The notes under the pieces are model-generated. The model made no database searches and was not told the DNA's origin. It saw only the letters and a program-made list of their open reading frames with translations. From an uncultured Saprospiraceae bacterium (GTDB taxonomy: Bacteria; Bacteroidota; Bacteroidia; Chitinophagales; Saprospiraceae), in NCBI GenBank assembly GCA_937981555.1, contig CALJOK010000029.1, positions 1 through 64,000 on the forward strand: a stretch of 64,000 bases of DNA, written 5' to 3'. Positions 12,945-23,589 of this stretch are shown here, one piece after another; position 1 is the stretch's first letter, and each line of letters begins with the position of its first letter. The position numbers were made by a program, and so were the translations under genes.

Positions 12945-15900
12945 ATGAAATTAATAATTAACCTGTTTTTCATTTTTTCATTTTTCATTTTTTTACCAAA
13001 AGGTCATTCCGAATCCGAAAACTTCTTATCTAACAATTGTAATTTTTCCATTGCTAATGGTCAAATTGATTGTACCGAATATTTACCCAATGGAAATTTA
13101 AGAGTTGTCGTAAATAATAACAATATATTGACGGAACACGAAATTGACGAAAATGGATCAACTGTAGCCAGTCAAGAATTAGGCTTTGCGGTAGAATCTA
13201 TTCTCGAAATTGAAAACAATATTATTGTAAAAAGAGATGCTTCTGGGAATATCGTTTCTCAACAAGCACTAAATGCAACGCTGGTCGGTGAATATTTTTC
13301 TTTTGAAAAAGTAATTGAATTCGATGGCGGTTATATTATTGCTGCTTATGAAAGTGAATCAGTTGATTGGACTTTTGATCCAGGATTAACTTTGGTAAAA
13401 ACAGATTTGAACACGACGGTTTTAAATGTTTTTCAAATTGAATCAGAAGGACAACCTCAATATACGTTTGTACATAACTTAGTGAAAATTGAAAACAATC
13501 GATTTGCGATTATTGTAAATCAACAGCTCGGACAATATTTTCCTGAAACTAATTTCTATCTTTTTGATGCTAGTTTTGATCTCAAATTTGAGAAAGAAAT
13601 AAATAATTTTAATCAAGGTTCTTCAACTTTTCCAAATGCAAATTTAAGACAAACAGCTTGTGGGTACTGGTATTATCGTACGGTAAACGGAAGTGAAAAT
13701 TGTAATTATAGTTGTGTGATTTCTAATTCTGATATTTATTTTAACCTTGAAAATGATGAAATTATAAATTATAAAAACAGCGGTACAGCAATTGGAAGCA
13801 TCGCAGGAGACGTGACTTTTTCTATTCCTACCACCTATATTTCTAATTACGGATCTTCTTCAACGTATAATGATAGCGGGGTTTTAAAGGCATATTATCG
13901 TTCAACTATTCCTGGAAGTCCGTCTTATCAATTGGTTCATTTGGATTCCAATGGAGATACCCTTTGGCAAAAAACACCTGATGAAATTTTTACTTGGGTG
14001 GAATTTGTAAAAATTGGAGCAAATTATTTTTTGCTTGATGGAGAAGTTCAAGGATCTTCTAACTCGGCGATTACCTTACAACAAGTCTCCGCTCCATGTC
14101 CCTCCACTAGTAACACTTGCCCAAATGAAATTGCTGATTTTACTTTCCTCGGCGAATTCGAAAACAGTAAATATTTTTTGTCCAATGATGATTCTCCACC
14201 TAACAATGCGCAGATAATCGCTCAACAAAATAATGGTTACTTAGCTGTAATTAATTCGCAAGCAGAAAATGATTTTCTTCAACAAAATATTTCTGAAATG
14301 ACTTACATCGGTTTAAACGATGTGGATTCGGAAGGAAATTTAGTTTGGGGAAATGGCGACCCACTAATTTATAACAATATAAACCCGTGTAGTTTTTGCA
14401 ATGAAAATTCTGATGAACAGGATTACGTAATTATGGCACCTTGGGATGGTGCATGGAGTTTTTCTTCTGTTTGGAATTCCCGTAAATATATTGTTGAGGT
14501 TCCTTGTAATAGTTCGTCAGGAGAATTTGAAATCACCTATGATTGTCCTGCAGAATTTCCTCAATCAGGAATTTGGGAAGTACCAGTTACGCTGGCTAAT
14601 AATACTGCAAATCCATCTAATCCCTTTTTCCTATCATTGTATTTAGAAGGAAATGGAACTGGACCAAATCCACAATCGCCTTTTGCTACGGTTACTGCTC
14701 CAATCTTGCAAGCAGGAGAATCGACCACTATTATTTTGGAAGCTAATCTGCCTAGCATCAGTTATTATTTACCCAATCGAAAAACTTTTCCATCATTTTA
14801 TATTGGAGAATTTACCTATGGAGATTTCTATATTTCTCGAAGTGCGACCGTTCCTCAACCAACAGTTCCGTTTGATTTTTATTGTAAAAAATATACGACA
14901 GATTTAGCAGTTGCTATTCAAAATTCAGTTCCAATCTTCACTCCGAATAATGAAGTTATTTATACTGTTGAAGTAACTAATAATGGTGATGAGGATGCTT
15001 ATAATATTCAAACACAATTATTAGAATCCATGGCATCTTCTTATCCTATCGGAGGGACAGTTGATTATAGTGCTGATATAAATAATTTGAGTGCAGGTAG
15101 TTGGCAAAGATTATCAGGAGGGAATTATGTCTGGTATCTTTCAGAATTAGGAGTGGGTGAAACGGCAACTGTGGATGTGATTTATCACTTGGATGATCCA
15201 TTGGAATTTGGAGCAAATCTGCCTGATGATTTTACTGTAAATGTGTCTACGACGAGTGGACATTTAATTGATACAGATGATTCTAACAATACTTCTACAT
15301 TTGTTTTTGAAAAAGAAAATTCAGGTGGCGGAGACTGTCCTGATGTGATTGCTGGTTTTACTTTGCTTGGTGAATTTGGAGATTCTAAATATTTTATTTC
15401 CAATACTGCTGCACAACCTGCTGATGATCAAGTAGTTGCGCAACAAAATGATGGCTACCTCGCAGTAATTAATTCTCAAGAAGAAAATGATTTTCTCCAA
15501 CTAAACATTTCCGAAATGACTTACATCGGTTTGAATGATGTAGATTCGGAAGGAAACTTAGTTTGGGGAAATGGCGATCCACTCAATTATAACAATATAA
15601 ACCCGTGTGGTTTTTGCAATGAAAATTCAGATGATTTAGACTATGTAATTATGGCTCCTTGGAATGGCGCATGGAGTTTTTCTTCCGTTTGGAATTCCCG
15701 TAAATATATTGTTGAGATTTCATGTGATAATATTCCAATGCCAACTGATTTTTGTGGTTATTTAAATGACTATTCAATTTCATCCACCGAAAATTTTAAA
15801 AATTATTCCCTCGAAGAAACTCCATCAGGTTTAGTTTTACAAACTGCTACTCAGGAAGATATGGGGGACAATAATAATTCTATTTTTGAATTTGCAAATA

Positions 15901-18344
15901 TCAATAATGATGGACAAGCAACAGGAGTTTCAAGTTTAACTTTACCCGTTGATAACAAATCAAAATTTGGAAATTTTGGCTACCGCCTTGAAGAAATTAC
16001 TTCTACTCAATTTCAAATTGTAGCAGTCAATTCAGATAATGGAAATATTTGGGAAAGCATTGTTACACTCAATGTATCAGATAATAATATTGACGAATTA
16101 ATCTCCATTGAAATCAAAGAAATGGAAGACCATTTGGTGGTAGCTGGGAGTTATCATTTTGGAGGAGTGACTACGCCGACTTGGCGATCATTTTTAATAA
16201 AGTTGGATTTAGATGGAAATGAAATTTGGCAAAATGTTTTTGATGTAGTGACTTATTATCCAAAATTATTGGTGCACGGTGCAGCTACGAACGGAGGTTA
16301 TTATTTGGATTTAGATGATGTAAGTGATGGGATTAATTATTTAGTAAAAACGGATGAATTTGGAAATCCAGTTTGGACTGAATTGGTGACAATTATATTG
16401 GTAGTTGAAGAAATTACTTTTGCAGGGGAGTCGCCTGATGGTTCTGGAGTGATACTAGGAGTGCATAGTCAAAATACGAACAAAGGAGAAATTATAAAAT
16501 TTAATATAAATACAGGAACTAGAATTTGGACTAAAAACCTTAGTCCTCTACTCTCGGGAGGTCAGGGAACTGTTGCACAAGGTATCAATGGTGTTGTCGC
16601 AACCTCAGATGGTGGAGCTGTTTTTATTGCTGATTTTTTAAGTTATAGTTTAATGACGCAGATTTATATTTATGGTCGTTTGGACTCCGATGGGAATGAA
16701 CTTTGGCATTATAAAATTCCTGATGAATTAAGAGATCATCATGCTACTTTAGAAACTTCAGATGGTGGTTTGGTTTTTTCAAAATACAATGAAGAGAATC
16801 ATACGGTCGATATATTTAAAACAAATAGCAATGGACTTTTTGATCCGATTTGTAATGTGGCTGTTTTTTCAGATTTGTCCTTATCAACTTTAAGAGGATG
16901 GCAAGGTGGATCAATTGCAAATGGAGAGACAGAACTCATTGATTTTAAAATCCATAACAATGCTCTTGCGGATGCGGAAAACTATGTGATTAAGGCATAT
17001 CTTTCGACAGATAATCTATTGAGTGCTAATGATATTTTGGTCACCGCTTTTGGATATTCCAATACTCCCTTTGGAGTGCATGAGGTGACAGAAGCATTTC
17101 AAATTCCATTGGTGCCAGAAGCGGAATATCGATTGCTTTTGGAAGTAGATGGGAATCAAACTATTGCTGAAACAGATGAGGAAAATAATGTTTTACCTTT
17201 TAGTCCATCTCGATTGATCACAGGTGGACCACTTTTAGAATTGCCTGATTTTCGTCCTGGGTTTTTGAATGTTGGAGGAAATTTTGGTTTAGAAACTCCT
17301 CCAGGGAATTATACTTATAATTTTGATTTGAGTAATATTGGCAACATTTCATCCAATGGTGGAACTGCCAAAATCTTTCTTTCGCATGATACAGAATGGT
17401 CACCAGATGATATTTTAATTGGGGAAAAAATAATTGGGAATGTACCTGTTGGAAGTTCTGTTTTGCTAGAAGAGCCGATTGATGTTACTATTACGAATGG
17501 TATTCCTCTAGGACTTTATCGAGTAATTTTAGTCATTGATTCGGAGGAGGAAATTTTGGAATTTGATGAATTAAATAATATTTCGACAAGTGGAATTACA
17601 GTCGTTCCAACATCCAATTGTCCAACCGACTTGCCTAATTTTGATTTCCTTGGAACATTTGAAAATTCAAATTATTTCCTTTCTCATGATGCAGCACAAC
17701 CTGTAGCCGCTCAAGCGATTGCAGAAAATAACGGAGGATATTTAGCCACCATAAAATCAGCAGACGAAAACGAATTTATCTTTTCTCAAATAAATGAGAT
17801 GGTTTATTTCGGACTTAATGATTTTGAAATGGAAGGCAGTTATGACTATTTTAATGGAGAAACAGTTAGTTGGGTAAATTTTGATATTTGTAGTTTTTGC
17901 AATGAAAACTCAAGTGAGATGGATTTCGTCGTCATGCATAATTGGAATGGAAAATGGAGTTGGAGCAATTATTACAACTCACGTAAATATATTGTTGAAA
18001 TTCCCTGTGGCTCAACGGTGACTAGTCCAACTATCAATAATTCTTTAATTGCTCAAGTCCCTAATCAACTTGATTTTGAACAATTAATGATTGAAAAATT
18101 ATATCCAAATCCTGCAATGGATTTTATGTATACGACCATTCAAAGTCCCATGGAGCAAGAAGTGGAACTACAAATTTTTGACGCAAGAGGTTCATTGATG
18201 AAAAATATAACAATACATTTACAAAAAGGAAAAAATGTAACTCGGATTTCTATTTCAGATTTGCCTGGAGGATTTTTTTCCGTTTATATTCCTACTGCAC
18301 AAGGGAAGAATTCAACTAAACGATTTGTGAAGGTGAGAGGTTAA
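12945..18344 (+). CDS. T9SS-exported giant with three variant C-type-lectin-like domains (paralogue 2)
   Basis: 1799 residues. Approximate order: signal peptide 1-21; propeller-like region 25-380; CTLD 391-521; Ig-like and DUF11-like domains 525-790 (VIYTVEVTNNGDEDAY); CTLD 797-927; second propeller-like region 930-1305, matching the one in paralogue 1; two CARDB-like domains 1308-1420 and 1430-1550; CTLD 1558-1688; T9SS sorting domain from about 1705. CTLDs 1 and 2 of this protein are much closer to each other than to the third, which suggests an internal duplication. The last ~100 residues match paralogue 1 with only about a dozen differences. A surface adhesin or ligand-binding role is inferred from the domains; no enzyme motif is seen. 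Confidence 0.9.
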   Translation: MKLIINLFFIFSFFIFLPKGHSESENFLSNNCNFSIANGQIDCTEYLPNGNLRVVVNNNNILTEHEIDENGSTVASQELGFAVESILEIENNIIVKRDASGNIVSQQALNATLVGEYFSFEKVIEFDGGYIIAAYESESVDWTFDPGLTLVKTDLNTTVLNVFQIESEGQPQYTFVHNLVKIENNRFAIIVNQQLGQYFPETNFYLFDASFDLKFEKEINNFNQGSSTFPNANLRQTACGYWYYRTVNGSENCNYSCVISNSDIYFNLENDEIINYKNSGTAIGSIAGDVTFSIPTTYISNYGSSSTYNDSGVLKAYYRSTIPGSPSYQLVHLDSNGDTLWQKTPDEIFTWVEFVKIGANYFLLDGEVQGSSNSAITLQQVSAPCPSTSNTCPNEIADFTFLGEFENSKYFLSNDDSPPNNAQIIAQQNNGYLAVINSQAENDFLQQNISEMTYIGLNDVDSEGNLVWGNGDPLIYNNINPCSFCNENSDEQDYVIMAPWDGAWSFSSVWNSRKYIVEVPCNSSSGEFEITYDCPAEFPQSGIWEVPVTLANNTANPSNPFFLSLYLEGNGTGPNPQSPFATVTAPILQAGESTTIILEANLPSISYYLPNRKTFPSFYIGEFTYGDFYISRSATVPQPTVPFDFYCKKYTTDLAVAIQNSVPIFTPNNEVIYTVEVTNNGDEDAYNIQTQLLESMASSYPIGGTVDYSADINNLSAGSWQRLSGGNYVWYLSELGVGETATVDVIYHLDDPLEFGANLPDDFTVNVSTTSGHLIDTDDSNNTSTFVFEKENSGGGDCPDVIAGFTLLGEFGDSKYFISNTAAQPADDQVVAQQNDGYLAVINSQEENDFLQLNISEMTYIGLNDVDSEGNLVWGNGDPLNYNNINPCGFCNENSDDLDYVIMAPWNGAWSFSSVWNSRKYIVEISCDNIPMPTDFCGYLNDYSISSTENFKNYSLEETPSGLVLQTATQEDMGDNNNSIFEFANINNDGQATGVSSLTLPVDNKSKFGNFGYRLEEITSTQFQIVAVNSDNGNIWESIVTLNVSDNNIDELISIEIKEMEDHLVVAGSYHFGGVTTPTWRSFLIKLDLDGNEIWQNVFDVVTYYPKLLVHGAATNGGYYLDLDDVSDGINYLVKTDEFGNPVWTELVTIILVVEEITFAGESPDGSGVILGVHSQNTNKGEIIKFNINTGTRIWTKNLSPLLSGGQGTVAQGINGVVATSDGGAVFIADFLSYSLMTQIYIYGRLDSDGNELWHYKIPDELRDHHATLETSDGGLVFSKYNEENHTVDIFKTNSNGLFDPICNVAVFSDLSLSTLRGWQGGSIANGETELIDFKIHNNALADAENYVIKAYLSTDNLLSANDILVTAFGYSNTPFGVHEVTEAFQIPLVPEAEYRLLLEVDGNQTIAETDEENNVLPFSPSRLITGGPLLELPDFRPGFLNVGGNFGLETPPGNYTYNFDLSNIGNISSNGGTAKIFLSHDTEWSPDDILIGEKIIGNVPVGSSVLLEEPIDVTITNGIPLGLYRVILVIDSEEEILEFDELNNISTSGITVVPTSNCPTDLPNFDFLGTFENSNYFLSHDAAQPVAAQAIAENNGGYLATIKSADENEFIFSQINEMVYFGLNDFEMEGSYDYFNGETVSWVNFDICSFCNENSSEMDFVVMHNWNGKWSWSNYYNSRKYIVEIPCGSTVTSPTINNSLIAQVPNQLDFEQLMIEKLYPNPAMDFMYTTIQSPMEQEVELQIFDARGSLMKNITIHLQKGKNVTRISISDLPGGFFSVYIPTAQGKNSTKRFVKVRG

Positions 18345-18451: not shown

Positions 18452-19243
18452 TTGAATTCAATTTTCACCATCTATGATTTAAAAAATGCGATTCCTAAGA
18501 TTGGGAAAGGTCATCCTTTTTTGCCCGACCGGAAATGGTTGGAGGAAGACTTGGAGGGAAAGCTATATGAAATTGTAAACGAAATCAATCAAAATGGGTG
18601 GGCATTTAAATCCATTGAGAATTATACGGAATGGCAAGAAAAAGCAATTCCTGCCATCAAAATGTCCACTCCTGATTGGCTAGTTCATTTTGTGATTTTG
18701 GAAAAAATTGAAAAGAGTATCCAAGAATTTTTTATTCCAAATACTGCTTTCCAAATTTCAAAAATGGATGAACTCATTGATCAATGTAAATTATGGAAAA
18801 AAGAAAATCCAACTGCTTGGGTTTTACAAACTGATATTAAATTCTTTTTTAAAAATATTAGACATGATTTATTATTAGGTAGTTTGGAATCGAAATTGTC
18901 AACGCAAGTATTTAATATTTTAAAGCAATATTTGAATGCCACTTTGGATGCTGAAAAAGGTTTAGAGAAAAAAGGAATAGCGATAGGAGCAGAGTTAAAT
19001 TATTTATTGGCTTCAGCTTATTTGTTGCCAATCGATGCTGCTATTTTTCATTCAGAAAAAGTGATTCATTACGCCAGATATGTAGATGATATTTTAATTT
19101 TTTGTCAAGATGAACAAGAGGGGAGGAGAGTGCAAAAAATGATTGAATTGGAGTTGGAGAAAATTGGTTTAGGATTAAAATTTTCAAAAACTAAAATCCA
19201 AAGTGTGGAAGAAGATATCCTATTCCTAAGACAATTATTATAA
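18452..19243 (+). CDS. Short reverse transcriptase (RVT_1), thumb-less or truncated
   Basis: 263 residues from a TTG start; no in-frame ATG lies before the conserved part and a stop sits 27 bases upstream. Palm motifs are intact: motif A QTDIKFFFKNIRHD with Asp128, motif B KGIAIGAELNYLLASAYL, motif C RYVDDILIF (Tyr210-Asp213), motif D LGLKFSKTKI, and a motif-E-like ILFLRQLL right at the C-terminus. The catalytic aspartates are kept, so activity is possible. It ends where the thumb domain should start, and lacks maturase and endonuclease domains. Motif B is IGxxxN rather than the QGxxxSP of group II introns or the IGxxxSQ of diversity-generating retroelements. It lies directly downstream of two lectin-fold genes. 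A repeat element begins 12 bases after the stop codon, so recent truncation is possible. Confidence 0.85.
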   Translation: MNSIFTIYDLKNAIPKIGKGHPFLPDRKWLEEDLEGKLYEIVNEINQNGWAFKSIENYTEWQEKAIPAIKMSTPDWLVHFVILEKIEKSIQEFFIPNTAFQISKMDELIDQCKLWKKENPTAWVLQTDIKFFFKNIRHDLLLGSLESKLSTQVFNILKQYLNATLDAEKGLEKKGIAIGAELNYLLASAYLLPIDAAIFHSEKVIHYARYVDDILIFCQDEQEGRRVQKMIELELEKIGLGLKFSKTKIQSVEEDILFLRQLL

Positions 19244-19255
19244 AGAAAACGACCA

Positions 19256-19488
19256 CTAAACATATAATCTAACAGCCCCAAAGGGGCGAAACATCACAGC
19301 CTATGGTGAAGCCATAGGAGAGAATAAAAACAATCTACGTCAAGCACCAACGGTGCGCAACATCTCCCCCAAAATAAAAATGTTTCGCACCTTTGGCGCT
19401 TTGTCATATCACATGGATTAAATTTCCTACGGCTTCGCCATAGGCTGTGATGTTTCGCCCCTTTGGGGCTGGTAGGTTATATGTTTAG
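19256..19488. repeat. 233-bp REP/MITE-like inverted-repeat element
   Basis: Terminal inverted repeats of about 64 bases (19256-19319 and 19425-19488) match with only a few differences and start and end with ctaaacat/atgtttag. Inside is a second, shorter inverted pair. Four copies of a 13-base hairpin of the type GCnCCAAAGGnGC, each followed by GAAACAT or GCAACAT, occur near 19273, 19344, 19387 and 19455 in alternating orientation. There is no coding capacity. It fills the gap between the reverse transcriptase and the DUF4132 gene. Confidence 0.75.
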
Positions 19489-19562: not shown

Positions 19563-22500
19563 TTACTTCCTGTTAATTTGAATTAAAATACTCGGATCCG
19601 TAATTTTTTCATCGTCAGCTAGCAAAAAAGCCTTACTCATAATCACCATCAAAGTTTTATCTCCACCTTCAAACGGTAACCATATTTTCTTTTCCATTCG
19701 ACTATTACTAGCAGGGACGATACAAAGGTATTGGTCATTCGGTTCCATCAAAATGTTACCACTTCCCAAGTTGATTTTATAAGTTCGGTAAGTGCCCACG
19801 ACTTTCAAGAAATTACCTTCAAAAGAACATTTTTTGGCAATTTTAGTCATTGGTAAAAGTCGCTCCAACAAGTCTTTTCTAATGTCAGCCATCGCAGTTT
19901 GAGATCTTTTTCCAAAGGAAGCATCTCTCCAATAATTCATCAAATCACCCGTTTGGTTTTGATCGAAATATGGGTCAATTCCTAAACCTGCGACCGCAAC
20001 AAATAAATCAACATCACGCATTATTTCCGAAAGAATGACTGGTGGAATATCCTCTAATGGTACTTTTTCTTGTTGGTAGTATCCATATCCTTTTCTGTTA
20101 GGATCTAGTTTCCTAAATTGTAAATCTAAAGTGTCACAATCAGCATATAAAACCCCTCCACGAATGTTGAGAATTGCGACTAATTCTGCACTAGGAATAG
20201 CAAATGTAGGTGCTTCTTCATAAGTCATTTTCCATTCCCTATTTTTTCCTAAACTGTACAACGTATTTCCTCGAAGGTGATGCCCTGCGAAGCGATTAGA
20301 ATGGTCATACGTAAGTTCTTCCGCAGGGGTAAGCAAGTAAACTTCTCGAAAGGCTTGCTTAAAAGGTTGTTTGATTTGTTGGTCAAAAATTCGGTTTCTC
20401 CAAGCCAAAGTTTCTTCCACAGAAACCAAGGAAGGATGCCAAAGTCGAATGGAAGTGTTTTCTTTAAGTTCAACGTTATTTTCTTGATAATCAATTAGTT
20501 GTGAATCTTGTATCATAAAAGAAGTGATTACTTCCTTGTCTTCCATAATCCATATTAATTTCTCAGAAATCACTCGCAACAATCCATGATTCAAAATAAA
20601 TTCCTTCCAATTATCTATAGACCAAGTTCGTTGTTGAAGCCAAGATTTTTCAAATTTTCTTGCTTGACTATTGAGCGTTTCTACCACACTTTTCCCTTCT
20701 GCTTTAACTGTTTTTATCTCTGCTGGGAAGTCATTTTTTAAGTGAGCAGGAACTGTTTTTTGGATTTTACCAGAAGGCATTTCCCAAGTGATATTTACTT
20801 TGAATCCATCTAGTTGTAACAATGCTTTTACATCTCCAATTTCGATGGTTTTTTTACCATTGATTAGATCATGGTCAGGCACCGAACGATCTGCCAATTC
20901 TTCTGGAGAAAACTGTTCCAGTAGTTTAGTGAATTTCTTTTTTCGAGCGGCAATGGCACGTTTATAAACAGAGTATTTTGCTTTCGCTTCAATATTATTG
21001 ATGATCCCAAATGCAGCTAAATTGCCAATATCAGCAAGTGTTTCCAAAGCGATATTTCCAAGTTTAGCATTCAATGGACCTCCTGGAACTTTTTTATAAG
21101 CACGGTTGGCAATCTTCTGCAGCATATATAATTGACCATTGCCAGGATGTAACCTACTGAGCCAAGTCAGACCTTTCAAAGCACATACTTTTTCGGTGTC
21201 TTGAAACCACTCATCTCCTACGACAAATTTTTCTAAAATCATTACTTGACCATTCTGAAAATCTTCTTTTCCTAGTTGATCGACAAGTTCAGTTGCTAGT
21301 TTTTGCCAAGTTTTGGAAGGCTTCCGATTTTCGGGATAACGTAGAGATTGGACAAGCAATTTAGTCCAAACTGGAAGGTTGGAAAGTTTGTCTAATTCCG
21401 CTCGAATGACTCTAAATTTTGGATCTTTTGTTAGATCGATTTGGTCCAAATCAGTTTTTAATTTTACAGGTTTTAATTCTTCAATTCGTTTGACAAAAGC
21501 AATTACGGGTTGATTTGATTTTGCAAAATTTATGTTGTCCACTCCAAAGATTACTTCCTTGTGTTGCGTGTAAGTTTTTTCATTGACCAAAGTTACTCGT
21601 TGATTAGCCCAATTCAAATTGTCAGTTCCATAGAAGTCAGGAGAGCCAGATTTATTGATTAAAATAAATTGGTATGGAATTTCATTTTCAAATAATAAAG
21701 TATTGATTGGATGCATGATGTTAATTCCCAAACCGTTGGCCGTTTGCAAATCGTACTGTTCGCCTTTTATTTGAAAACGAACAAATTGCATCTTGTCTCG
21801 ATCTTTATAAAATTTGACAATATCAACATCTGCCACTTCTTGCAATATTCTAAAGAATGGACGCACTTGTTCAGGACTCATACCTTTATAAACACTTTGC
21901 GAATATCCAGGTTGAATCGGTTCGAAACCACTATGAGTCAATTGATTGATTGTCGCTGTTTCACTTTCTTGAACTTCTCTCAGTTGAGCAAAATCTTGGA
22001 GTAATTTTAAAATATTTTTGTCTTCAATATGCTTGCCTTTGGTCTCAGGATAATAGTTCCAAAGTGCTTCCAATGTTTTGATAGAACCATTTTCTAACAA
22101 TGCTTTTGCGGCGGTGATAATTCCTTTGGGGAGTTTGATGGTTTCATTTGGTTTGAGGCAAAAAGTAGTAAAATCAGCGATTTGATTTTCCGTCCAATTT
22201 ACTTTTGCTAAAAGTAAATCTAGGTATTTGCTTTGCCTTTTGTAGGTCAATTTATTAAATAATTGAGGCTGCTCATTGATTAAAACTAGCTTACAAAAAT
22301 CAATTAGAACATCATCGGCTAGTTCAAGTGCTTTTGGAAAAAAAGAAAATTGATCTGTTGCAAAATCCTTGAACTCTTGCCATTCCAGCGAACTATTTTT
22401 TTCTTTTGCCTCTTCTTCTGCTACTTGATAAAAAGTAATTGCTTGCTCCGTTGCATCGGAATAACCAAGATTACTTTCAGTCAATAATATTTTAAAAAAG

Positions 22501-23081
22501 TCAGGAGTGTATTTTTTAAAATAACCTTCCTCTTTCAAAACTACTCTTGGGAAAAAATCTAAATCTTTAAATGATTTTTTAAGCTTTCCAGCTTTTAATT
22601 TCCCTAACAAAAAGATCAGGCAGATCTCAGCTTGGTATGCTTTGGGGAAATGTTGAGCGATATGATTAGGAATTTTGACATTATAATCATGCTCAGGAAG
22701 GACAGCCAGAAACAATAAAATTCTCACATATTTATAATCTAAACCAGTTATTCGTTCGGCAGTAATATATCGTTGAAGTGCCAATTGCAAATATTGAGCG
22801 TTCGAAATTAAATATTTATAAGTTTCTTTAAAGGCTAGAAATTCTACATCGGTTTGGGTAAAAATTGATTTTTCAGAATGGACTATTTCAGTTAAAAGTT
22901 TAGCCATTTGCTGGGAAGAGTAATCGCCCATTTTACTATTAAAAACCCGATTACCCAATTCCATTGTTTTGTACCAATCCTTTTTGGAAAAAATGGAAGA
23001 GAGAAAAGATTTCTTTTCTTTGGCATAATCAGGCAATTCGTTTTTCTTCAGCAGGCTTAAAATAGATTCAGGAGATAACAT
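19563..23081 (-). CDS. DUF4132 (MolR/YehI-like) protein
   Basis: 1172 residues from ATG at 23081; the frame also offers a TTG at 23126. The N-terminal ~500 residues are alpha-helical and repeat-like. A DUF4132 core is recognisable near residues 814-845 (WLQQRTWSIDNWKEFILNHG, LLRVISEKLIWI). The C-terminal part contains a conserved block (PPVILSEIMRDVDLFVAVAG, then YKINLGSGNILM and YLCIVP) typical of the extended family of E. coli MolR/YehI. Biochemical function is unknown in the family; homologues in enterobacteria lie near MoxR-ATPase/VWA genes, which are absent here. The gene lies 60 bases after the Gly-Gly protein gene on the same strand, so the two are probably co-transcribed. Confidence 0.82.
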   Translation of the reverse strand: MLSPESILSLLKKNELPDYAKEKKSFLSSIFSKKDWYKTMELGNRVFNSKMGDYSSQQMAKLLTEIVHSEKSIFTQTDVEFLAFKETYKYLISNAQYLQLALQRYITAERITGLDYKYVRILLFLAVLPEHDYNVKIPNHIAQHFPKAYQAEICLIFLLGKLKAGKLKKSFKDLDFFPRVVLKEEGYFKKYTPDFFKILLTESNLGYSDATEQAITFYQVAEEEAKEKNSSLEWQEFKDFATDQFSFFPKALELADDVLIDFCKLVLINEQPQLFNKLTYKRQSKYLDLLLAKVNWTENQIADFTTFCLKPNETIKLPKGIITAAKALLENGSIKTLEALWNYYPETKGKHIEDKNILKLLQDFAQLREVQESETATINQLTHSGFEPIQPGYSQSVYKGMSPEQVRPFFRILQEVADVDIVKFYKDRDKMQFVRFQIKGEQYDLQTANGLGINIMHPINTLLFENEIPYQFILINKSGSPDFYGTDNLNWANQRVTLVNEKTYTQHKEVIFGVDNINFAKSNQPVIAFVKRIEELKPVKLKTDLDQIDLTKDPKFRVIRAELDKLSNLPVWTKLLVQSLRYPENRKPSKTWQKLATELVDQLGKEDFQNGQVMILEKFVVGDEWFQDTEKVCALKGLTWLSRLHPGNGQLYMLQKIANRAYKKVPGGPLNAKLGNIALETLADIGNLAAFGIINNIEAKAKYSVYKRAIAARKKKFTKLLEQFSPEELADRSVPDHDLINGKKTIEIGDVKALLQLDGFKVNITWEMPSGKIQKTVPAHLKNDFPAEIKTVKAEGKSVVETLNSQARKFEKSWLQQRTWSIDNWKEFILNHGLLRVISEKLIWIMEDKEVITSFMIQDSQLIDYQENNVELKENTSIRLWHPSLVSVEETLAWRNRIFDQQIKQPFKQAFREVYLLTPAEELTYDHSNRFAGHHLRGNTLYSLGKNREWKMTYEEAPTFAIPSAELVAILNIRGGVLYADCDTLDLQFRKLDPNRKGYGYYQQEKVPLEDIPPVILSEIMRDVDLFVAVAGLGIDPYFDQNQTGDLMNYWRDASFGKRSQTAMADIRKDLLERLLPMTKIAKKCSFEGNFLKVVGTYRTYKINLGSGNILMEPNDQYLCIVPASNSRMEKKIWLPFEGGDKTLMVIMSKAFLLADDEKITDPSILIQINRK

Positions 23082-23141
23082 TGTAAATGTATTGTTATAG
23101 ATTTTTCGTAAAAAGGTTTTTTCCAAAAAAATGAACTGATT

Positions 23142-23552
23142 TTATCCACCAACTAAAGGCATCAATTGTATAAATCTTACCATTGAGTTTCCAGTTAAGA
23201 CTAATTCTTCTTTTAAATCTTCTCGTTGTTTGCCATCAACAATTACAAAAAATACATTTCGTTGAAAACCAGATAATGCCTCATAATATGCTTTTTCAGC
23301 ATCAATAGTTCCATCGTTTGATTTGGCAAACCTTTTTTGAATAGCATCTTGATTTAAGACTTGTTCTTGAGTGGTTTTGTAGAAAGGAGAAATGTTTCTC
23401 GTTTTTAAATCTTGATTAATTTCTTTAACTCTAGCAGTCACTTTCTGTTGGATCAGGTCGCTGACCGTAATTCGCTCTGAGGAAAAATGCATAGAGATTT
23501 CATTAATTTTTCCAGTTCCGAAAACTTCTTCTTTGATGGTAAGTTGAAACAT
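23142..23552 (-). CDS. Small beta-grasp-like protein with C-terminal Gly-Gly (ubiquitin/MoaD-like candidate)
   Basis: 136 residues from ATG at 23552. The frame continues upstream only to an ATT at 23624, and a TAnnTTTG promoter element lies inside that extension, so the ATG is preferred. The N-terminus starts straight into a strand-rich segment (FQLTIKEEVFGTGKINEIS) and a helix (VSDLIQQKVTARVKEI). A charged middle insert follows. The end reads FFVIVDGK, ELVLTGNSMVRFIQLM, PLVGG. An exposed Gly-Gly tail after a last beta strand is the hallmark of ThiS, MoaD and bacterial ubiquitin-like proteins. No E1, E2 or JAB peptidase gene is in the window. The fold is inferred; the tail and the pairing with DUF4132 are seen directly. 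Confidence 0.72.
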   Translation of the reverse strand: MFQLTIKEEVFGTGKINEISMHFSSERITVSDLIQQKVTARVKEINQDLKTRNISPFYKTTQEQVLNQDAIQKRFAKSNDGTIDAEKAYYEALSGFQRNVFFVIVDGKQREDLKEELVLTGNSMVRFIQLMPLVGG

Positions 23553-23581
23553 GACAAGTTTGTTTTGAATAAAAGAATAAA

Positions 23582-23589
23582 CAAATGTA
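23582..23589 (-). promoter_or_regulatory. -7 box of the Gly-Gly/DUF4132 unit
   Basis: On the minus strand this reads TACATTTG, a perfect TAnnTTTG, 30 bases before the preferred ATG. No clear -33 element is at the standard spacing. It is the main argument for the shorter protein start. Confidence 0.45.

Follow-up and report, generated by a model that had tools for sequence, protein, structure and literature searches.

In a 64,000-nucleotide stretch of DNA from an uncultured Saprospiraceae bacterium (GenBank assembly GCA_937981555.1, contig CALJOK010000029.1, positions 1 to 64,000 of the forward strand; hereafter the window), two adjacent reverse-strand genes encode a small protein that ends in Gly-Gly and a giant protein with the domains DUF4132 and DUF7737 (Table 1). 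An earlier reading of the letters, made without database searches (the sequence-only reading), had placed a Gly-Gly-tailed protein of 136 residues 60 bases before a 1172-residue DUF4132 protein on the same strand, with a TAnnTTTG box before the first gene, and this arrangement was borne out by open reading frames and Pfam matches. The small open reading frame spans 23145-23552, with its stop codon at 23142-23144, and its product ends in ..RFIQLMPLVGG (MVRFIQLMPLVGG). The ATG of the giant lies 60 nucleotides past that stop; an alternative TTG start at 23126 gives a giant of 1187 residues, and residue numbers such as C1135 follow this longer frame. The box was found at 23589-23582 as TACATTTG, which we take to be a Bacteroidota-type -7 promoter box. 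The source genome encodes two DUF4132 proteins, and a separate small gene accompanies each of them.

Table 1. Features of the gene pair in the window
Feature	Position	Strand	Basis
Gene of small, putatively ubiquitin-like (MoaD/SAMP-like) protein, 136 residues plus stop	23142..23552	(-)	Open reading frame and profile matches
Terminal Gly-Gly codons, tail PLVGG	23145..23150	(-)	Sequence; Gly-Gly in 40/42 A1 homologues
Variable insert, about residues 52-98, first helix to third predicted strand	23259..23399	(-)	Alignments
DUF4132/DUF7737 giant, 1172 residues from ATG 23081	19563..23081	(-)	Open reading frame and Pfam
DUF4132 domain (PF13569)	20232..20771	(-)	E 2.2e-46; 158.5 bits vs curated cut-off 27
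DUF7737 domain (PF24879), C-terminal in the giant, tracks with the small protein	19575..19886	(-)	E 3.4e-37; 127 bits vs cut-off 27
Cys1135 codon, in QYLCIVP	19722..19724	(-)	Residue present with Gly-Gly-tailed partners, absent with others
TACATTTG box upstream of the first (small) gene	23582..23589	(-)	Sequence

The small-protein profile matched 46 of 298 genomes of the family and 11 of 395 genomes of the phylum, while PF13569 matched 57 of the family genomes and, over the cut-off, 10 of the phylum genomes. The family set held 70 places with a DUF4132 protein, 54 with DUF7737 and 16 without it, several of the 16 being partial open reading frames. A small gene was counted as linked when its match started within 8 kb (those of G055, G198 and G251 were added by hand; handles in G denote genomes and handles in L loci). 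On this count 44 of the 54 DUF7737-bearing places were linked to a small gene, eight had a small gene elsewhere in the genome, and two, a 273-residue open reading frame and a pseudogene, had none. Among the 16 DUF7737-less places, 11 had no small gene, two were in genomes whose small gene adjoins another DUF4132 protein, and three were linked. Two of these three (G253 and G251) are contig-edge truncations with the first DUF7737 residues at the edge. The third is G059 (L070:3500-4260), in which the giant ends in a tandem-repeat-rich stretch without a DUF7737 match and the small protein has the tail QLMGG; this system looks as if it had decayed. The sequence-only reading had proposed a survey of DUF4132 neighbours, and in ours the small partner does recur. 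The pair that it described is conserved, but the partner is the DUF7737-bearing giants and not DUF4132 proteins in general. We hold with high confidence that DUF4132 proteins with a C-terminal DUF7737 domain have the small protein as their dedicated partner.

The giants without DUF7737 keep other company. A homologue of the MoxR-type AAA ATPase of L137 (AAA_5, E 2e-34) is present in seven of the 12 stretches searched around them and, as yehL, in the yehI stretch of E. coli; neither the 12 stretches nor the yehI stretch gave a small-protein profile match at E <= 0.01. The loci with a DUF7737-less DUF4132 protein and a MoxR-type AAA gene were L133-L138 and L140, and L128. MolR/YehI has the DUF4132 domain in common with the giant of the window, but YehI lacks a DUF7737 match, and its surroundings, which include MoxR/vWA/SWIM genes (YehLMPQ), gave no match to the small-protein profiles. 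The comparison suggests that two separate DUF4132 systems exist.

The pairing extends beyond the family. In the phylum sample the small gene was present in all 10 genomes with DUF4132 over the cut-off, and in an eleventh genome, G603, it lies beside a DUF4132/DUF7737 remnant. Records of a plasmid collection contained pairs in Nonomuraea gerenzanensis (tail VPLVGG), Novosphingobium humi (TPLKGG), four Deinococcus records (ALAGG) and Bacteroides finegoldii (a class B pair, as defined below, with the tail LSGRLW). The DUF7737 branch comes with this probably ubiquitin-like partner in four phyla. In the class of G518, DUF7737 was found in one of 112 genomes, G518 itself, and viral contigs and phage records held no relative of the small protein or the giant.

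Where the two genes lie on the same strand, the order is small gene then giant in 55 pairs and the reverse in seven, with spacings measured between stop-to-stop frames and not start codons; in four of the seven (L035, L038, L049 and L053) the two genes lie within 1 nucleotide of each other. These order reversals, together with unlinked pairs kept within one genome, rule out that the pairing reflects only an inherited neighbourhood. Beyond the pair itself, no gene recurred at more than 7 of the 45 loci examined, and among the recurrent neighbours we noticed no gene resembling E2 (conjugating) or JAB enzymes, for which profile searches were not run.

The tail of the small protein was examined in A1, a set of 42 of the 44 distinct sequences; the two left out, L074 (tailless) and L076 (a fragment ending LVGGYF), are not Gly-Gly-ended. 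A terminal Gly-Gly was present in 40 of the 42 (38 PLVGG, one PLIGG and one QLMGG), which rules out that it arose by chance, and among these 40 rows the majority residue averaged 0.98 at the last five positions vs 0.57 over residues 1-126. Over the wider family the tails fell into four classes. Class A, which includes the window, ends in ..F(I/V)xLTPLVGG with the Gly-Gly exactly terminal. Class B ends in ..FIRLTFLAGSYW and similar, with giants of ~1700 residues, one of which (L072) has the domain order DUF5724-DUF4132-DUF7737; class C ends in ..FFKRGKLDSIDFKTL-like tails, with giants of ~1200 residues. Class D is tailless (..RFVRC, ..CFVQMK and ..RFVQIR) and comprises the small proteins L159:4995-5339, L160:4782-5132 and L074:413-754, in which the variable insert is shortened. 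These come from G020, G037 and G138, the three of the 46 family genomes with a small-protein match that have neither DUF4132 nor DUF7737.

The Gly-Gly tail is not universal, since two paired clades end in GSYW-like or FKTL-like sequences, and the pairing kept there rules out that Gly-Gly is essential everywhere. The sequence-only reading had made the Gly-Gly tail a hallmark of the pair, to be doubted if homologues beside DUF4132 did not keep it; the tail is kept in the clade of the window but missing in those two clades, so that this claim holds in part. The matching cysteine of the giant is absent there as well.

This cysteine is C1135 of the window's giant. Among 74 giants that reach DUF7737, the column holds Cys in 52 and Ser, Asn, Gly, Ala or Phe in 22. 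For 68 of them a tail could be assigned, six of these tails being read from a small gene that lies elsewhere in the genome, not linked to the giant (the other six giants have no assigned tail): 48 combine Gly-Gly with Cys, 20 combine a non-Gly-Gly tail with the absence of Cys, and none is mixed. C1135 was the sole column that was 100% conserved in 47 Gly-Gly giants and 0% in both non-Gly-Gly clades (15 and 4 rows). L151, with an internal Gly-Gly (LVGGYF), has Ser at this column. The Deinococcus giants fall together with Bacteroidota class B giants in one clade of full support (100/100), yet they have the ALAGG tail and Cys, while their class B relatives have other tails and Ser, Asn, Gly or Ala. 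On the tree, from which the fragments L124, L131 and L162 were left out, Gly-Gly switches twice and Cys three times; the third Cys switch, we infer, is that of Acetobacter. Of the 51 columns conserved in Gly-Gly giants, 26 stay conserved whatever the tail class, including H847, Q920, R927, E928, R945, R1037, D1038 and D1040. The DUF7737 giants L166, L172 (Nonomuraea), L152 and L158 have Cys and no small-protein match in the stretch, and their genomes have one small gene at another place; one small protein may serve several giants.

The sequence-only reading had also described two beta-grasp halves separated by an insert of ~50 residues, and the halves and insert agree with our alignments; our own fold prediction was poor. 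An hhalign comparison of the A1 profile with ThiS/MoaD gave a weak match (E 0.006, residues 100-136) that scored 19.5 vs a maximum of 18.3 in 60 shuffles, and the profile of all classes scored 23.6 over 34 columns, above all 100 column shuffles (maximum 18.1). Searches of Pfam, NCBIfam, PHROGs and PADLOC assigned no family to the small protein, PHROG matches occurring in at most two members each. As in MoaD, ThiS, Urm1 and SAMP, a hydrophobic strand and Pro lead into a terminal Gly-Gly in the small protein; its genome encodes a MoeB-type E1 (activating enzyme), and a fold prediction has been published for its Deinococcus homologue. It differs in being longer (about 130-140 residues), in its variable insert, in having no ThiS/MoaD Pfam match, in its DUF4132/DUF7737 partner and in the two clades without terminal Gly-Gly. 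From the published prediction and the weak profile similarity, the small protein probably has a beta-grasp fold of the MoaD/SAMP type.

That Deinococcus homologue is DR_A0165 (SEP068184), which gene order (Trx1, small gene, DUF4132 gene) identifies with the L170 protein; the pair DR_A0165/DRA0166 is homologous to ours by profile and order and, like the window pair, has the Gly-Gly tail and the Cys. According to the available sections of the two reports concerned, DR_A0165 is predicted to resemble ten structures including MOCS2 (5MPO) and SAMP1 (3PO0), and the authors relate these to molybdopterin synthase (PMC9650054). The peptide increases under gamma rays and H2O2, its deletion increases H2O2 survival, and it is described as binding Trx1 and acting as a negative regulator of oxidative stress (PMC9650054). 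The drA0165-drA0166 operon is strongly up on DdrO depletion, and tagged DRA0166 increases with mitomycin C (PMC8533742). A DdrO-type motif is listed at -83 in PMC8533742, which conflicts with PMC9650054, where none is reported. DR_A0165 was judged to be confined to Deinococcus, with a highly conserved C-terminus (PMC9650054), unlike our reading of it as one member of a wider family, and the available sections of that report were found to contain no mention of DUF4132 or ubiquitin. A literature search found no mention of DUF7737 or DUF5724, and the available parts of the literature on DUF4132 gave no link to a ubiquitin-like protein and no assigned biochemical activity.

Bacterial ubiquitin-like operons with E1, E2 and JAB genes, and the ubiquitin-like conjugation of CBASS (cyclic oligonucleotide-based antiphage signalling systems), use ubiquitin-like chemistry of the E1 family. 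One of our loci likewise has an E1 in the operon: at L117 (G634) a ThiF/MoeB-type gene of 233 residues starts 2 nucleotides past the stop of the giant, giving the order small (Gly-Gly), giant (Cys), E1. As a rough estimate, not a computed value, the chance of an E1 lying beside one of ~60 pairs is ~0.05. The window locus differs from the known operons in that it has no E1 gene in the operon, that its giant is a DUF4132 protein, and that E2 and JAB genes were not noticed, without a profile search for them. The single ThiF-family E1 of the source genome is a MoeB whose end looks rhodanese-like by eye; it lies on another contig than the window, and the genome also encodes two separate ThiS/MoaD proteins. 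ThiS/MoaD proteins of the source and related genomes have PPVSGG tails, which PLVGG resembles.

The best explanation that we can offer is that the two genes would form a dedicated two-protein system, in which the small protein may contact the giant's C-terminal region through its own C-terminal strand and tail. For Gly-Gly-tailed pairs, we propose that a MoeB-type E1 activates the terminal glycine, which would then be transferred to Cys1135 of DUF7737 or retained there, bound as a thioester or an acyl-disulfide. Such a bond might charge the giant or act as a switch, and the setting could be a response to DNA damage or oxidative stress, as in Deinococcus. Taken as a whole (a dedicated ubiquitin-like partner, its tail acting on the giant, a thioester possible), this explanation is tentative and, in our judgement, falls slightly short of being probable; the covalent step from Gly-Gly to Cys1135, considered alone, is possible and on balance somewhat doubtful. 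Our data directly support the pairing and its confinement to proteins with DUF7737, as well as the conservation of the tail and the coincidence of Gly-Gly with Cys. E1 activation and a thioester are the bolder claim, which is consistent with each assigned pair and rests on two evolutionary switches and one E1 operon. The most far-reaching version, in which the DUF4132/DUF7737 giants would be a new class of ubiquitin-like-charged protein (Gly-Gly activated by E1, thioester or acyl-disulfide at the DUF7737 Cys) and the Cys-less clades would have turned the tail into a non-covalent plug, is doubtful.

Several observations weigh against this explanation. For the fold, the AlphaFold2 model of the small protein (from two sequences) was poor, with a predicted local distance difference test (pLDDT) of 45 and the order bb-a-(aa)-bb, as was the AlphaFold model of DUF7737 (pLDDT 49), and Foldseek found no match for either low-confidence model at E <= 0.001. 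The small protein had no Pfam ThiS match; Urm1 was matched by 2 of 42 members, at E 0.008 at best, and a PDB sequence search with the small protein, the giant and DUF7737 found no relative (best E 0.068). The all-class hhalign match had an E of 0.001 at a probability of 21, which is weak, and with subsets of ThiS/MoaD as the target its score dropped to 18.0 and 11.4, the latter under its own shuffles. Given these profile results, we file the small protein as of the prokaryotic ubiquitin-like kind and do not place it within ThiS/MoaD. For the coincidence, there are two independent Gly-Gly switches only, so that a sign test gives p 0.5 and cannot reach significance. Of the 51 columns conserved in Gly-Gly giants, class B loses 4 and class C loses 12; by our arithmetic, chance alone would give about one loss common to both, and two were observed, C1135 and nearby V1137. 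The joint loss of Gly-Gly and Cys could be due to chance. An Acetobacter DUF7737 giant has Phe at the C1135 column, and the stretch searched around it contains no small gene. For the activating enzyme, a tblastn search with the source-genome MoeB over the loci fetched around the pairs found no linked E1 besides that of L117. ThiF was present in 34 of 39 Gly-Gly genomes (in 24 of 24 of completeness >= 95%) and in 15 of 17 non-Gly-Gly genomes, but 18 of 20 genomes lacking the small gene have it too; because it occurs at like rates with and without the small gene, the presence of an E1 is uninformative. Two of the five Gly-Gly genomes that show no ThiF are 92-94% complete (G168 and G226).

Alternatively, the tail may dock without any covalent bond, as a peptide plug in a pocket of DUF4132/DUF7737, with the Gly-Gly, GSYW-like and FKTL-like ends as clade versions and with neither E1 nor thioester. 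We consider this nearly as likely as the covalent claim. Docking accommodates the survival of the pair in two clades without terminal Gly-Gly, the tailless small proteins of the three genomes that have no DUF4132, the columns of the giant that all tail classes have in common, and an E1 that is not a regular neighbour, but by itself it leaves unexplained why the Gly-Gly is exactly terminal and co-occurs with Cys, and why one operon runs from small gene through giant to E1. A role as sulfur carrier, in which MoeB-rhodanese would thiocarboxylate the Gly-Gly and the DUF4132 protein would use the sulfur, as MoaE does with MoaD, is unlikely in our view. It would suit the likeness to the PPVSGG tails, the rhodanese-like end of the source-genome E1, seen by eye, and the published fold similarity to MoaD-type proteins (PMC9650054, available sections); against it, no third gene recurs at more than 7 of the 45 loci, the genome already has two separate ThiS/MoaD proteins, and the pair is kept in non-Gly-Gly clades. 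Classical conjugation, with the small protein attached to many cell proteins and the DUF4132 protein as an E2/E3-like enzyme, is very improbable: 157 proteins were recovered together with DR_A0165 whichever of the four tag set-ups was used (PMC9650054, available sections), but this intersection is not proof of conjugation because it includes C-terminally tagged forms, unable to conjugate via a free Gly-Gly, and we noticed neither an E2- nor a JAB-like gene among the recurrent neighbours, with E2 and JAB profiles not run.

Other genes surround the pair. A small reverse transcriptase (RVT_1) adjoins it in three relatives (window 18452-19243 (+), L033:1468-2322 and L036:5177-5977), lying between the giant and the small gene at L036; the nearest PADLOC models to that of the window are Drt3a/UG-type reverse transcriptases (E 2e-27). 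Farther along the window, 12945-18344 (+) encodes a large secreted-looking protein with C-type-lectin-like repeats and an end like that of type IX secretion system (T9SS) substrates, both by eye. Positions 19300-19450, 3' of the pair, contain short inverted repeats (cctatggtgaagccatagg and similar) that by eye resemble repetitive extragenic palindromic (REP) elements.

The Gly-Gly-Cys coincidence yields a prediction at a single residue that can be tested in the laboratory, and Deinococcus radiodurans, where the operon is reported to be induced by DNA damage and a small-gene deletion strain has been published, provides material for it. A stress peptide regarded as confined to Deinococcus is recast as one member of a broad family, and the pair may represent a new kind of bacterial ubiquitin-like partnership.

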